From Rhodospirillales bacterium BBD 1991-14 (GTDB taxonomy: Bacteria; Pseudomonadota; Alphaproteobacteria; Kiloniellales; Kiloniellaceae): a DNA stretch of 64,000 bases. Positions 11,744-16,351 of the stretch are shown in pieces; within the stretch, counting starts at the first letter, position 1; the number at the start of each line of letters is the position of its first letter. The translations under genes were made by a program, and so were the position numbers. Location: NCBI GenBank assembly GCA_001657395.1, contig LYSY01000001.1, forward strand, positions 186,001 to 250,000, given 5' to 3'. Below the pieces are notes generated by a model. It had not been told where the DNA came from, did no database searches, and saw only the letters and a program-made list of their open reading frames with translations.

Positions 11744-12940
11744 CTATTCTGCCCCTTCCGTGTCCCCCTCGGCATCGTCGTCCACCTCGATGACGGAGAT
11801 CGGCTGCTTCAGCTTCTTCAGTTTGTTGTACTGCTTCAGCTTCTCGATCATGGCGGGCGAAAGGCGGTGCCCGCTGGCGAGGACCAGAACATCAGCCTCG
11901 GTGACGACATCGGCGGCCAGCTTGTGGGTTTCCTTGAGCTGAAAGAGCTCGACCTGTTGGACCTCTGGCTCCGCCGAGGCGTCGCCGCTGCTGTCTTCCG
12001 CAGGGACCAGGCAGGCCTGGGCCGCCTTCAGGATCTCGGGGTCGTAGTGCGCACCATCCCTGGCCAGGGTCTCGAAGGCTGCGCTGCTGGGCCACTCGCC
12101 CGTCGTCGCCCGCGCAAGGTCGGAGAGCACGCGCAGGACCCGTGCCTCCATCGGCAGCGCCTCGCCCTTCTTGCCGTCACCGGGAAAACCGCTGCCGTCG
12201 AAGCCCGCGGACTGGTAGTAGACGGCATCCGCGACGGCTTCGAGCCGCGGGATGTTCTTGATCAGGTCGCGAGCGGTCTCCGGCGTCCGGGTCAGCATCT
12301 CGGCTTCCACGTCGCTGAGCTTCTCCCCGTCGCGCAGCTTCTGGCTCACTTCCCTGGGCAGGGTGATGCGGCCGATTCCATGCAGCATGATGGACATGTT
12401 CAGAGCCCAGCCGTCGCGCAGCTTCATGAAGCGCGCCAGCATGCGCGCCCAGAGCTGCAGGCGGGCCGTCTCCTTGAACGCCTCGGGGTCGTTCAGCGAG
12501 AGCACGTCGACCAGCACCTTGATGCTGCCAGCCAGGGTTTTTTCCAGCAGTTCCCGTTCGGCGGCGATCAGCCGGTACTGCTGCTGGGCCGCCTCCACGG
12601 CAACGGCGAGGTCTTCCGGGCCGCAGGGCTTGGTCAGAAAGCGGAAGATGTGCCCTTCGTTGACGGCGTCCATGGCCGTTTTCTGGTCGGCATTGCCGGT
12701 CAGCATCATGCGGACCGTCAGCGGCGCCTTCTGCTTGACCTGGCGCAGAAAGCTGATGCCGTCCATCTCCGGCATCTGCTGGTCGCTGACCACGACGGCA
12801 AAGGGACCGTGCTGGTCGATCGCGTCCAGGCCGGCGGCGCCCCCTTCGGCGGTCTTCAGATCGAAGCGCTTGCGCAGGCCGCGCTTGAAGGCGCTCAGGA
12901 TCTGCGGATCGTCGTCGACGAAGAGGACCTTGTCGCTCAC
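11744..12940 (-). CDS. Response regulator with degenerate HD-GYP domain
   Basis: 398 residues. An N-terminal receiver domain has the acidic pocket FVDDD and phospho-acceptor D53 in SDQQMPEMDG. It is followed by an HD-GYP-like domain in which the metal site is lost: the HD pair reads HG (about 187-188) and the HHE region reads YYQS (about 241-244), although FDGSGFPG keeps the GYP-like loop. The tail after about 330 is acidic and low in complexity. It should not hydrolyse cyclic-di-GMP but may act by protein contact, as shown for HnoD of Shewanella. GTG start 12940 overlaps the stop of the upstream gene (GTGA). Confidence 0.85.
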   Translation of the reverse strand: MSDKVLFVDDDPQILSAFKRGLRKRFDLKTAEGGAAGLDAIDQHGPFAVVVSDQQMPEMDGISFLRQVKQKAPLTVRMMLTGNADQKTAMDAVNEGHIFRFLTKPCGPEDLAVAVEAAQQQYRLIAAERELLEKTLAGSIKVLVDVLSLNDPEAFKETARLQLWARMLARFMKLRDGWALNMSIMLHGIGRITLPREVSQKLRDGEKLSDVEAEMLTRTPETARDLIKNIPRLEAVADAVYYQSAGFDGSGFPGDGKKGEALPMEARVLRVLSDLARATTGEWPSSAAFETLARDGAHYDPEILKAAQACLVPAEDSSGDASAEPEVQQVELFQLKETHKLAADVVTEADVLVLASGHRLSPAMIEKLKQYNKLKKLKQPISVIEVDDDAEGDTEGAE

Positions 12941-14145
12941 GCTGCACTCCCGATACGGCGCCAGCCCTCGGCCCAATCGGCAATGTTCTCGGTGCAGCCC
13001 TGCTGGCCCAGAAAGTCCGTATCCAGGCGCGCGAGGACGGCGTCTGACGGCTCTCCGGCATCGCTGGCGCTGACGATACCCAGGGCGGCGTGGACCGCCA
13101 GAAGCGGCAGCCGCGCGTCTTCGTCTTGCTCTGGGACCCCGGGCTCGCGATGATGGCGGATCGCCTCGACAACCGCTGAGGGCATGCCCCAGGCTGCTGC
13201 AAGGTATGCCCCAAACACGACGTGGGAGGCGGCGAAGACCTCCCGCTCGGCATCGTCCGGCCCCTTGCCCTCGTCGACCAGGGCGGTGACACGGGCGTAG
13301 TGGTCACCGGCCTGATCGCAGAGCAGCAGGCGGCCGAGATTGTGGAGCAGGCCGGCGAGACGGGCCTGTTCGATTACCTGGGCAGAGGCGCCCCGCTGCT
13401 CGGCGATCCAGGCGGAGAGTTCGCTGACGCTGCGGGCCTGTGCGATCGCCCGCTCGTAGGCGGCGCGGCAGGGCCCCGAAGGAAAGGCGCTGACGAAGGA
13501 TTCGTTGATCAGCAGGGCGCGCAGAACGTCCCAGCCCAGCAGGTTCGCGGCTGCCCTGGGACTGAACACCGGGTCACCGATGCCAAAGTAGGCGGAATTC
13601 GCCAGCTGCATCACCTTTGCGGCGAGCGCCGGCTCGTCGGCGAAAAGTTCCACCGCCTGGTCGATGGTCGCAGATTCCGAGTCCAACAGGTCGGCGAGGG
13701 CATCGAAGGTGCTGCGCGAGGTCGCGAGACACCGCACGCCGGTCACCAGCGCCCCCATGTCGATATTCTCGAACTCGCTGCGCCGCCGCAGGCAATGGCT
13801 GATGACCGCGACAAGCCGCTCGCTGTTCGACGGCTTCGGAAAGAACTGGTGGCTCGTCACCACCGTACGGAACGTCGCCTCGGTGTCGGCTTCGCCGGAA
13901 AGGATGAAGCGCAACATCTGTGGATAGCGCTCCGCCACCTGGTCAAGCAGCTCCGCGCCCCCGACGCCCGGCATTTTCATGTCCGTAACAAGCACATCGT
14001 AGCTTTCCCCCTCAAGCGTCTTCAGTGCCTCCTCGCCGCCCTCGGCGAAGTCCATGGTCCATTCATTGCGCATGCTGCGCAGCATGCGGCGAAGCCCCTG
14101 AAGGATGTTGCTTTCATCGTCGACGAAGAGAATGCGCGGCTTCAT
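12937..14145 (-). CDS. Response regulator with HDOD output domain
   Basis: 402 residues: receiver domain with phospho-acceptor D55 in VTDMKMPG and the conserved lysine in FFPKPSN, then an HDOD domain (ATSRSTFDALADLLDS, VMQLANSAYFG, GLLHNLGRLLLCDQ) of the type that usually works as a protein-protein signalling module. It starts directly after the kinase stop and overlaps the downstream regulator by 4 bases, so both regulators are probably targets of the kinase. The specific output is not known. Confidence 0.87.
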   Translation of the reverse strand: MKPRILFVDDESNILQGLRRMLRSMRNEWTMDFAEGGEEALKTLEGESYDVLVTDMKMPGVGGAELLDQVAERYPQMLRFILSGEADTEATFRTVVTSHQFFPKPSNSERLVAVISHCLRRRSEFENIDMGALVTGVRCLATSRSTFDALADLLDSESATIDQAVELFADEPALAAKVMQLANSAYFGIGDPVFSPRAAANLLGWDVLRALLINESFVSAFPSGPCRAAYERAIAQARSVSELSAWIAEQRGASAQVIEQARLAGLLHNLGRLLLCDQAGDHYARVTALVDEGKGPDDAEREVFAASHVVFGAYLAAAWGMPSAVVEAIRHHREPGVPEQDEDARLPLLAVHAALGIVSASDAGEPSDAVLARLDTDFLGQQGCTENIADWAEGWRRIGSAA

Positions 14146-15519
14146 CTAGACAGCCTCCTTCAGGGTCTCGGCCTCCCCAACCGGCAAATGAATGATGAAC
14201 GTGGTGCCGACGCCGACCTCGGACTCTACCGAGATGGTTCCATCGTGCTTCTGCGTGATGCTGCTGTAGGCGATCGACAGCCCCTGGCCGGTCCCCTTGC
14301 CGACGCCCTTGGTCGTGAAGAAGGGATCGAAGATCTGCTTCCTGTGTTCCTCGGAAATGCCGCAGCCGGTATCGCTGATGCGGATCTCGGCCATGTCGCC
14401 GCGCTGCAGCGTCTCGATGGTGATCTTGCCCAGATCTTCCTTGTTCAGGCTTTCGATCGCGTGTGCGGCGTTGATCACCATGTTCAGAATGACCTGGTTC
14501 AATTCGCCCGGCAGGCAGGGAACCATGGGCAGGCTGTCAGCGAACTTCGTCTCCACCTCGGCGATGTACTTCCACTCGTTGCGGGCGACCGTCAGGGTGG
14601 TGTCGATGGCCTTGTTCAGATCGACCAGGCTCTTTTCCGCGGTGCCCGGGTGCGAGAATTCCTTGATCGCGGTGACGATCTTGCTGATCCGCGCAACGCC
14701 ATCCAGGCCCTGCGCGATGGAGGTCGGAACCTCCTCTTTCAGGAAGTCGATGTCGGCGTCTTCCTGGCAGGCCTTCACGGTGGCGATCTCGTCGCCCAGC
14801 ACGCCGGCGGCTTCGGCTGCCTTCAGCAGGGTCTCTTGCGCTTCCAGCACCTTCATCAGATCGGTGAAGGCGTCTTTCAGGAAGTGACCGTTGTCGCTGA
14901 CGTACTGAACCGGCGTATTGATTTCATGGGCGATGCCGCTTGCCAGGGTGCCGAGGGACTCCAGCTTCTGCGCCTGACTCAGCTCCTGTTCGAGCTTGGC
15001 CCGCCTCTCCTCGGCTTCCTTGCGGGCGGAGACATCCTTGAGGATCCAGACCGTGAAGGTGCTGCCGTCCATGTCGAGCTGGGTGATGGACAGTTCCATC
15101 GGAAAGGTCGCGCCGCTTTTGCGCTGGCCGACAGACTCAATGGATTTGTCGGAGGTGTTCAGTTCCTGGTGGAGCTCCGAAACGGCATCGTATCCATGCG
15201 CGGCATCGCGGGTCTCCGGGCTGAACAGCTCGAAGAAGTCGGTTCCCAGCATTTCTTCCTTCGACATTTCGAAGGTCAACTCGGCCACCCGGTTGGCGCG
15301 GATGATCTGATCCTTCTCGTCGACCAGGAAGATCGAAGCCATGGCGTGGTCGAGGACTGCCTGAAGCTGCTGCGACTGAGCCTTGATGAGCTGGGCGGAC
15401 TTGGAGACCTGTTCGCTGGCCAGGTAGAGGTCGCGGCTCTTTGTTTCAAGCAGGGACTCGGCCTGCCGCCGCGCGATCTTCTCGCGCGCCAGACGCTTCT
15501 TGAGAACGTCCGTGTCCAT
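14146..15519 (-). CDS. PAS-domain sensor histidine kinase, likely H-NOX partner
   Basis: 457 residues with no membrane segment, so cytosolic. An N-terminal coiled coil (about 1-55) precedes a PAS domain (about 55-165), then the phospho-acceptor helix with H in SGIAHEINTPVQYV, N box LNQVILNMVINAAHAIE, G1 SDTGCGIS and G2 GKGTGQGLSIAY. All catalytic motifs are present. It sits between the H-NOX gene (3 bases) and the HDOD regulator (0 bases), the layout of H-NOX-regulated kinases (HnoK type). Confidence 0.9.
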   Translation of the reverse strand: MDTDVLKKRLAREKIARRQAESLLETKSRDLYLASEQVSKSAQLIKAQSQQLQAVLDHAMASIFLVDEKDQIIRANRVAELTFEMSKEEMLGTDFFELFSPETRDAAHGYDAVSELHQELNTSDKSIESVGQRKSGATFPMELSITQLDMDGSTFTVWILKDVSARKEAEERRAKLEQELSQAQKLESLGTLASGIAHEINTPVQYVSDNGHFLKDAFTDLMKVLEAQETLLKAAEAAGVLGDEIATVKACQEDADIDFLKEEVPTSIAQGLDGVARISKIVTAIKEFSHPGTAEKSLVDLNKAIDTTLTVARNEWKYIAEVETKFADSLPMVPCLPGELNQVILNMVINAAHAIESLNKEDLGKITIETLQRGDMAEIRISDTGCGISEEHRKQIFDPFFTTKGVGKGTGQGLSIAYSSITQKHDGTISVESEVGVGTTFIIHLPVGEAETLKEAV

Positions 15520-15522
15520 ATC

Positions 15523-16065
15523 CTAAGCCGCCTTCGTCAGAAGGAACCGAACGCTGCTGCCGCTGTCGTCGATGTCCTGGCGTTCGACGCTCATCTTCTC
15601 GCCGAAGTAATCGATACAGCCCAGGATCAGGCCGTGCGCCGCATCGGCCAGGCAGCGCTGTGACTCGTAGATGACTTCAAGCGTGTCGTCGCCCTGGCGT
15701 GTGGCGGTGATCAGAGGCGGCTTGGAATCGCTGTAGAGCTTGCGGACCTCTGCGTGAACGATGCTCTCCACGCCTTCAAGGAAGGTGAAGGCATCCTTGA
15801 CCCCGGAGAAGAAGCGGGGGTAGGTGCGCACGAAGCGCTCGAAGAGGTAGAACCCGTAGGCGCGGACGAGGTCGGTGACCGGTGTATCGGTCTCCTTGCT
15901 CAACTGGACCACCAGTTGAACGAGCTCGGTGTGGTCGTAGGTCCCGATCGTCGTGTAGGCGCAGCCCGAAGAGACATCGACCTGATCGATGATGCGCTCG
16001 GTCAGATCAGGCGAAAACTTCTGGTCCACCATCTCCAGAAACTCGGTGAAGAGTATGCCCTTCAT
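15523..16065 (-). CDS. H-NOX haem nitric oxide-binding protein
   Basis: 180 residues, the usual stand-alone H-NOX length. It begins MKGILFTEFLEMV and has the proximal haem ligand H104 in IVHAEVRKLYSDSKPP and the porphyrin-binding Y-x-S-x-R motif (Y133, S135, R137). The position matching the oxygen-stabilising Tyr140 of the Caldanaerobacter protein is alanine (A142), so it should bind NO and exclude O2. It is the first gene of the four-gene operon and presumably controls the kinase. Confidence 0.93.
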   Translation of the reverse strand: MKGILFTEFLEMVDQKFSPDLTERIIDQVDVSSGCAYTTIGTYDHTELVQLVVQLSKETDTPVTDLVRAYGFYLFERFVRTYPRFFSGVKDAFTFLEGVESIVHAEVRKLYSDSKPPLITATRQGDDTLEVIYESQRCLADAAHGLILGCIDYFGEKMSVERQDIDDSGSSVRFLLTKAA

Positions 16066-16351
16066 GGTAGCGTTTCTCCCGTCAGCTCCAGCGGGTGCCG
16101 GGTTGCCCCGCCACGCCCAACCCTTGGCCCTGGGCCTCCGGAAACAGCAGTGATGAGCACCCAGTCTGCAGGCGCGAGGAGAAAATCCCTCCCTTCACCT
16201 GCGCTTCTGATGAGGAACTATCGACAGTAATTCTAGACAAAACGTTAATTCTCTTAGGTTGAAAATTATCAAAATGATTATCTATAGAGGGTTGAGTCGC
16301 ACAGGGGTGCGGCCTGGGCGTGCTGCTGATTTTGCTGGAGCGGGATGGCCG
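16066..16351. other. AT-rich intergenic region upstream of the H-NOX operon
   Basis: 286 bases between the H-NOX start (minus strand) and the LysR stop. The part from about 16205 to 16300 is clearly AT-richer than its surroundings and probably holds the H-NOX operon promoter. On the minus strand a TTGATA hexamer is followed 17 bases on by ATTAAC, a weak match only. No gene seen. Confidence 0.4.

Follow-up and report, generated by a model that had tools for sequence, protein, structure and literature searches.

How does a haem nitric oxide (NO)/oxygen-binding (H-NOX) sensor come to stand in front of two response regulators of the HD superfamily, neither of which carries a complete HD site, and what might such an arrangement do? 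The question is raised by a four-gene operon in a 64,000-nucleotide stretch of DNA (hereafter the window) from Rhodospirillales bacterium BBD 1991-14, a member of the Kiloniellaceae (assembly GCA_001657395.1, contig LYSY01000001.1, positions 186,001 to 250,000 of the forward strand). On the minus strand, between window positions 11744 and 16065, genes for H-NOX, a PAS histidine kinase, a receiver (REC)-HDOD protein and a REC-HD-GYP-like protein follow one another in one row. We consider it fairly probable (about 70%) that they form an NO-responsive branched two-component system, in which a stand-alone H-NOX has been attached to a pre-existing three-gene cassette and both outputs act by binding. 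The basis for this is observed: the gene content, the close coupling, the conservation of the unit, the receiver residues, the loss of catalytic residues and the grouping of the kinase.

Structure and conservation of the operon

The genes are tightly packed, with a gap of three bases between the H-NOX and kinase genes, none between the kinase and REC-HDOD genes, and a four-base overlap (GTGA) between the REC-HDOD and REC-HD-GYP-like genes. For the last gene we used the GTG at 12940 rather than the TTG at 12976 given by the open reading frame (ORF) listing, as the most likely start, because three compared relatives begin at the same place (V, M, V). A sequence-only reading of the window had described a tight four-gene operon that encodes no cyclic di-GMP (c-di-GMP) enzyme, and both points hold: the genes lie where it placed them, and none of the four proteins has a GGDEF or EAL domain. 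There was likewise no EAL match in the two flanking genes scanned; elsewhere in the genome three EAL and five GGDEF matches exceed their cut-offs.

The same gene order is found in seven other Kiloniellaceae genomes, four of the same genus and three of a sister genus. Going by where the REC domain starts, the HDOD gene abuts or overlaps the HD-GYP gene in the four same-genus genomes, and the two lie 29–46 bases apart in the three others. The site, between LysR and RecQ genes, is kept in the four other same-genus genomes that have the operon. Comparison with three relatives shows purifying selection on all four genes, with ratios of non-synonymous to synonymous substitution (dN/dS) of 0.05 to 0.36 (0.05 to 0.15 against the nearest relative, and highest for HDOD against a further one); the four are thus not chance open frames.

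Relationships of the kinase

The kinase (14146..15519, minus strand, 457 amino acids [aa]) is recognized by its HATPase_c (6.5e-25) and PAS_9 (4.9e-12) domains, its HisKA match (8.2e-4 only) falling below the cut-off for that family. Over about 275 aa, its core shares 47–60% identity with the kinases of cassettes that lack H-NOX, three rows excepted (L039, which is a fragment, and L074 and L095, discussed below). Identity to seven H-NOX-adjacent kinases of other Pseudomonadota is 33–40% over about 270 aa, and the remaining H-NOX-linked kinases gave either matches only about 115 aa long or 24–31% identity over longer stretches.

A tree of 78 kinases, built without the three excepted cassette rows and without eight H-NOX-linked rows shorter than 230 aa (L137 re-entered via another cut), gives the same picture. 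A single clade with support of 100/100 takes in 66 rows: all 54 from cassettes without H-NOX, 11 from H-NOX cassettes (the window included) and the second kinase of Rhodopirellula baltica. The seven H-NOX-linked kinases of other Pseudomonadota form a separate clade (95/90), two NosK-like kinases of Burkholderia a third (99/93), and three more H-NOX-linked kinases fall outside these, mostly on long branches. Because the window kinase groups with the cassette kinases, apart from 10 of the 11 other H-NOX-linked kinases in the tree, the operon looks like an H-NOX captured by another cassette rather than an Hno operon, of the type known from Shewanella, with one part exchanged. In those cassette kinases that were tested for a FIST domain, Pfam gives PAS_7 instead, and the domain was rejected.

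A three-gene cassette beyond the family

In the order sample, relatives of the REC-HDOD protein (E of 1e-30 or better) occur in 12 of 61 genomes, at 13 places, and at every one of these the kinase, REC-HDOD and REC-HD-GYP-like genes stand in a row. An H-NOX gene lies in front at eight places, all in two Kiloniellaceae genera, and is absent at the other five. We also scanned a wider collection with the REC-HDOD alignment alone and kept the best 80 of at least 575 confirmed relatives; six repeat places already found in the order, leaving 74 distinct loci. An HD-GYP-like gene adjoins the HDOD gene in 59 of these 74 (after it in 55, only before it in four), a kinase lies directly upstream of REC-HDOD in 54, and both are found in 46. 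The 46 full loci span nine phylum-level groups, as assigned from record names and with 'delta' counted as one, and three are unplaced. Over all 80 loci, the HD-GYP-like gene is downstream in 61, in 44 of which the two genes overlap or lie within four bases of one another (by REC-domain start).

Pairwise distances of the three proteins correlate across 39 loci (r of 0.53 to 0.68), and do so without the order's own rows (33 loci, r of 0.61 to 0.74); in neither case was any of 2000 permutations as high. Such correlations fit inheritance as a unit, but they do not tell shared history apart from co-evolution. A search of plasmids gave no REC-HDOD match, and two NosR-like genes in Burkholderia pyrrocinia. 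A variation on the cassette was seen in a Phycisphaerae locus (L079:131-5095), where two tandem REC-HDOD genes lie between REC-HD-GYP-like genes.

H-NOX, HDOD proteins, degenerate HD-GYP proteins and kinases with several outputs are each already known; what appears new is the cassette and its H-NOX version, and of the two the cassette is the more interesting. Neither was found in our literature searches of open papers, and a search of the same literature pairing H-NOX with HDOD gave no match. We offer a broader proposal tentatively, at slightly worse than even odds: that kinase, REC-HDOD and REC-pseudo-HD-GYP make up an undescribed cassette shared across phyla, with interchangeable inputs, whose receivers are an obligate pair of the HD superfamily, the pseudo-enzyme being conserved with a consensus of its own (S, Q, C, H, Q) round the former metal site. 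H-NOX would be one such input, acquired in Alphaproteobacteria and also in Rhodopirellula, there either independently or through transfer. Few cases of degenerate HD-GYP proteins appear in the open literature surveyed, and one kinase in front of an HDOD and a pseudo-HD-GYP protein gives each a likely partner and, in the H-NOX branch, a probable input, NO. Contact between HDOD and pseudo-HD-GYP proteins, and the ligands of either, thereby become direct questions for the bench.

The two outputs

Both receivers have the acidic pair, the phospho-acceptor Asp, the Thr/Ser and the Lys. In the REC-HD-GYP alignment (the window and the 58 ORFs that remained after filtering by length and applying a short skip list), D9, D10, D53 and K104 are invariant over the 59 rows; in the REC-HDOD alignment (the window and 50 rows hand-chosen from 81 HDOD ORFs in named loci), D9, D10, D55 and K104 are invariant and S83 is nearly so over the 51 rows.

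The REC-pseudo-HD-GYP protein (11744..12940, minus strand, 398 aa) matches PF13487 (HD_5, 8.6e-39) and Response_reg (4.3e-19). A model of it (mean predicted local distance difference test score, pLDDT, 91.7) superimposes over the output domain on the HD-GYP protein PmGH (4mcw) with Z 19.6 and a root-mean-square deviation (rmsd) of 2.8 over 176 aligned residues. At the eight metal-ligand positions in PmGH numbering, PmGH has E, H, H, D, H, H, H, D and the window protein E, E, H, G, T, Q, S, D, so that three of eight are kept and the earlier label 'degenerate HD-GYP' is apt. The HD motif has become HG, a further H is T, HH is QS and GYP is GFP, which leaves the protein without the catalytic residues of the family. 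Since the model matches 4mcw while five of the eight ligands are changed, the fold is that of HD-GYP, and the known HD-GYP chemistry should be gone.

This loss is general in the cassette. Within 700 bases of a REC-HDOD gene we collected 79 HD-GYP-like ORFs (counting the window and order loci, with six repeats), and 77 of them have neither canonical catalytic motif, the two that escape being L094 and an extra ORF at L061. The residues at the former site are not random: H212 is replaced by Ser in 59, D213 by Gln in 40, K217 by Cys in 40 and H276 by Gln in 73, and His is kept at H250 in 39. Among NCBIfam models, the window protein scores best with the NosR family (NF053512), at 245.8 bits and below its cut-off of 400, and so do ten other cassette members tested, all below the cut-off.

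The REC-HDOD protein (12937..14145, minus strand, 402 aa), the product of the single HDOD gene that the genome was found to contain, matches PF08668 (2.7e-36; 125.3 bits against a cut-off of 22.9) and PF00072 (Response_reg, 1.1e-17). Its HDOD part, in a model with pLDDT 93.6, best matches the crystal structures of MmoQ (3p3q: Z 19.7, rmsd 3.9, 251 residues aligned), in lists filled mostly by receiver domains, so that families unlisted there may still match. The mechanism of HDOD proteins is described as not established (PMC6543031). As HDOD response regulators, GsmR and DVU0330 (PMC4114195) resemble the window protein.

An alternative to two binding outputs is an enzyme/pseudo-enzyme pair, in which an HDOD protein with the pattern H/HD/H/H may bind a metal or nucleotide and the pseudo-HD-GYP protein regulates it, the HDOD site having been lost later in the H-NOX branch of the family. 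The five positions H, H, D, H and H are indeed mostly kept, in 41, 47, 44, 48 and 48 of the 51 rows, and R. baltica has all five, Sedimenticola being another example of a cassette with the H/HD/H/H pattern; DVU0330, which has the HD residues, is reported to show weak activity on bis-p-nitrophenyl phosphate (bis-pNPP) (PMC4114195), and SadB, an HDOD protein with a YbaK-like part, to bind c-di-GMP (PMC6543031). GsmR, on the other hand, is reported to lack phosphatase and phosphodiesterase activity (PMC4114195), and mutation of three histidines in the HDOD protein I2285 is said to leave its swim and biofilm phenotypes unchanged (PMC9040570). In the window itself two ligand-like positions, H and D, have become Q and N, and at each of the eight Kiloniellaceae H-NOX loci Q or K replaces the first H and N, C or G replaces the D, which makes this an unlikely mechanism here. 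Of the five loci of the order that lack H-NOX, four keep the first H and the D, and the fifth (L024) keeps HD with E at the first position; at the H-NOX loci L222 and L247, inspection by eye found no HD motif at the expected place. The losses may be a single ancestral event. Overall, we regard the enzyme/pseudo-enzyme pair as unlikely, and return to two outputs that probably both act by binding, neither having a complete HD site here. Since the HDOD-containing SadB binds c-di-GMP, ligand binding by the HDOD output is as possible as the protein contact that the sequence-only reading had proposed for both outputs.

The H-NOX sensor and its ligand

The sensor (15523..16065, minus strand, 180 aa) is a stand-alone H-NOX protein (PF07700, E 2.3e-37; 128.8 bits against a cut-off of 25.5), with 6ocv as its best solved relative (E 2e-37). 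A His lies 29 residues before YESQR, in line with the proximal His and YxSxR haem motif of the family. Five residues after the Arg of YxSxR (R+5), where O2-binding members have Tyr, Ala is found in all eight Kiloniellaceae proteins and Leu in L107 and L222. With the proximal His and YxSxR present, and Tyr absent at the O2-binding position, NO is the likely ligand. The absence of that Tyr speaks against the view that the sensor responds instead to O2 or to the redox state of cysteines or haem, a view we hold to be improbable. It draws what strength it has from accounts of oxidative activation of H-NOX (PMC7108781, PMC12329717).

Upstream of the H-NOX gene, at 16259-16272 on the minus strand, the sequence TTGATAATTTTCAA is one mismatch from an FNR-type box and lies 194–207 bases before the gene. 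Scored with an FNR/NNR-like consensus, it is the sole one-mismatch site in 64 kb, yet it is not conserved, and it was rejected as an anaerobic regulatory box. The genome has a second HNOB protein, on contig C15 (C15:326238-326705; L028:6179-7081), within a 301 aa frame that also has a V4R match just below the cut-off. No kinase, receiver or HDOD profile match was found within about 6 kb of it.

Comparison with the Hno and Nos systems

The closest known arrangement is the Hno system of Shewanella oneidensis, in which a stand-alone H-NOX and a kinase are described as serving several regulators, one of them a degenerate HD-GYP protein (PMC6335343, PMC8846402). The window operon resembles HnoX/HnoK/HnoB/HnoC/HnoD in its stand-alone H-NOX beside a kinase and its degenerate HD-GYP regulator. 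It differs in having REC-HDOD and neither an EAL nor a DNA-binding regulator, and its kinase lies outside the clade of the seven nearest H-NOX-linked kinases, a comparison whose rows do not include the named S. oneidensis proteins.

Could it nonetheless be a true Hno system (HnoX, HnoK, HnoD) in which REC-HDOD has replaced the EAL regulator HnoB? The shared design of H-NOX, kinase and REC-degenerate HD-GYP would suit that reading, five loci of other Pseudomonadota (L226, L229, L249, L251 and L253) combine H-NOX, a kinase in the 33–40% range of identity and a REC-HD-GYP gene, and the EAL proteins elsewhere in the genome make an HnoB-like target possible. The window kinase, however, is closer to those of H-NOX-free cassettes and sits in their clade, and the pseudo-HD-GYP protein shares 35–38% identity with its counterparts at L247 and L107 and 24–30% with those at the same five loci, so that we judge a modified Hno operon quite improbable. 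The sequence-only reading had proposed an NO-responsive branched system on the pattern of Shewanella. The first part agrees with an H-NOX beside a kinase, two receivers with intact phospho-acceptor sites and a non-catalytic HD-GYP; the second, a variant of the Shewanella system, is not supported, given a kinase within the cassette clade (100/100) and an HDOD/pseudo-HD-GYP pair that mostly occurs without H-NOX. The probable capture of H-NOX by a cassette points to at least two origins of H-NOX/kinase signalling through a degenerate HD-GYP output.

The Burkholderia system NosP-NosK-NosR, in which NosK phosphorylates NosR and NosP inhibits NosK (PMC12570481), is alike in its kinase and REC-degenerate HD-GYP protein. 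Its sensor, NosP, is a FIST protein where the window has H-NOX, and no HDOD gene was seen in its description (PMC12570481). Nor is one annotated next to either of the NosR-like genes of B. pyrrocinia, and the kinases of these loci lie outside the cassette clade. The operon, on contig C1, contains no FIST gene, and the two FIST (NosP-like) matches in the genome are on contigs C4 (C4:355335-355922, L147) and C15 (C15:197103-197693). The match on C4 adjoins a PAS-HisKA-HATPase-REC hybrid kinase, which may point to a further pathway for NO in this genome, distinct from the operon.

By analogy, the operon probably works in an Hno/Nos-like way. NO would bind H-NOX and so alter autophosphorylation of the PAS kinase, most likely inhibiting it as reported for HnoX/HnoK (PMC8846402). 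NO should thus lower kinase activity, though the sign of the NosP effect is reported to differ between species (PMC12570481). The kinase would hand phosphate to both receivers. The pseudo-HD-GYP protein would then act by binding another protein, for example an enzyme of c-di-GMP metabolism encoded elsewhere in the genome, much as HnoD is reported to inhibit the EAL enzyme HnoB by direct interaction (PMC6335343), and the HDOD protein by binding a partner or ligand. The GGDEF and EAL proteins of the genome are possible candidate targets.

Where H-NOX meets the cassette

H-NOX was found in 18 of 385 genomes of the class sample and in 103 of 398 of the phylum sample. From these we fetched 57 regions (17 from the class and 40 from the phylum, part of the matches listed), with about 7 kb on each side where the contig allowed and leaving out matches in frames longer than 400 aa, which were many in the phylum listing. 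A search for H-NOX genes next to REC-HDOD genes, proposed in the sequence-only reading and run here in part, thus returned two of 57 further H-NOX regions in which REC-HDOD follows the H-NOX/kinase pair (L222 and L247), together with R. baltica. Both are alphaproteobacterial; L247 is complete, and no HD-GYP gene was seen at L222. The R. baltica locus (L107:4525-10718) is an unbroken row of genes on one strand, for H-NOX, two kinases, REC-HDOD, REC-pseudo-HD-GYP and another REC protein. The R. baltica structure 3kcn, annotated as an 'adenylate cyclase homolog', was considered as the cassette receiver and rejected, being a related protein instead. Mere chance adjacency of H-NOX and cassette, for which one could cite that H-NOX is mostly missing from other REC-HDOD genomes or placed elsewhere in them, is hardly credible when two genera of the family and genomes G788 and G477 (the latter without HD-GYP) have H-NOX and a kinase close in front of REC-HDOD, when R. 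baltica has the same arrangement plus a further kinase gene, and when all four window genes are under purifying selection.

A number of observations do weigh against an NO-responsive H-NOX cassette as we describe it. The identity of the ligand, the phosphotransfer, the sign of the NO effect and the targets are points that we infer. H-NOX does not regularly accompany the unit: among other genomes fetched by REC-HDOD, it occurs in six of 74 and beside the cassette in one, R. baltica (in another of the six, G591, the contigs are too short to place H-NOX relative to the cassette). The cassette is itself not uniform, 15 of the 80 loci having no adjacent HD-GYP-like gene and 20 no recognized kinase directly upstream, some of these gaps lying at contig ends. 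The 59 of 74 adjacency is a raw count without a background rate for other regulators; a generic PF08668 search of the phylum gave many ORFs about 300 aa long and was set aside as a control for adjacency. At L074 and L095 the kinases next to REC-HDOD are only 33% identical to that of the window over less than 200 aa. The bootstraps of the kinase tree had not settled, the ten alphaproteobacterial H-NOX cassettes group within the clade weakly (92/23), and the second kinase of R. baltica, which adjoins its H-NOX, sits on a long branch inside the clade. At L247 the H-NOX reads YKSRC where an exact YxSxR would be expected, and in the 400 bases before H-NOX at eight other loci the best FNR/NNR-like sites have two to four mismatches, giving no conserved NO-related promoter element.

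Within the cassette clade the R. baltica kinase is placed apart from those of the alphaproteobacterial H-NOX cassettes. Because of this, and because the latter group weakly, H-NOX was likely captured twice, or once with a subsequent transfer; the H-NOX tree does not decide between the two.

Several H-NOX loci carry further signalling genes. In the alphaproteobacterial cassette at L247:3751-9034, the HDOD protein has diverged strongly and another REC regulator is encoded upstream of H-NOX. At a Sedimenticola locus (L189:10942-11925), an HDOD gene without a recognized REC lies about 3.5 kb from H-NOX, with a cassette elsewhere on the same contig. In the sister genus of the Kiloniellaceae (L020, L021 and L022), two genes precede the H-NOX operon, one that matches REC and kinase profiles and runs on the opposite strand, and another REC gene.

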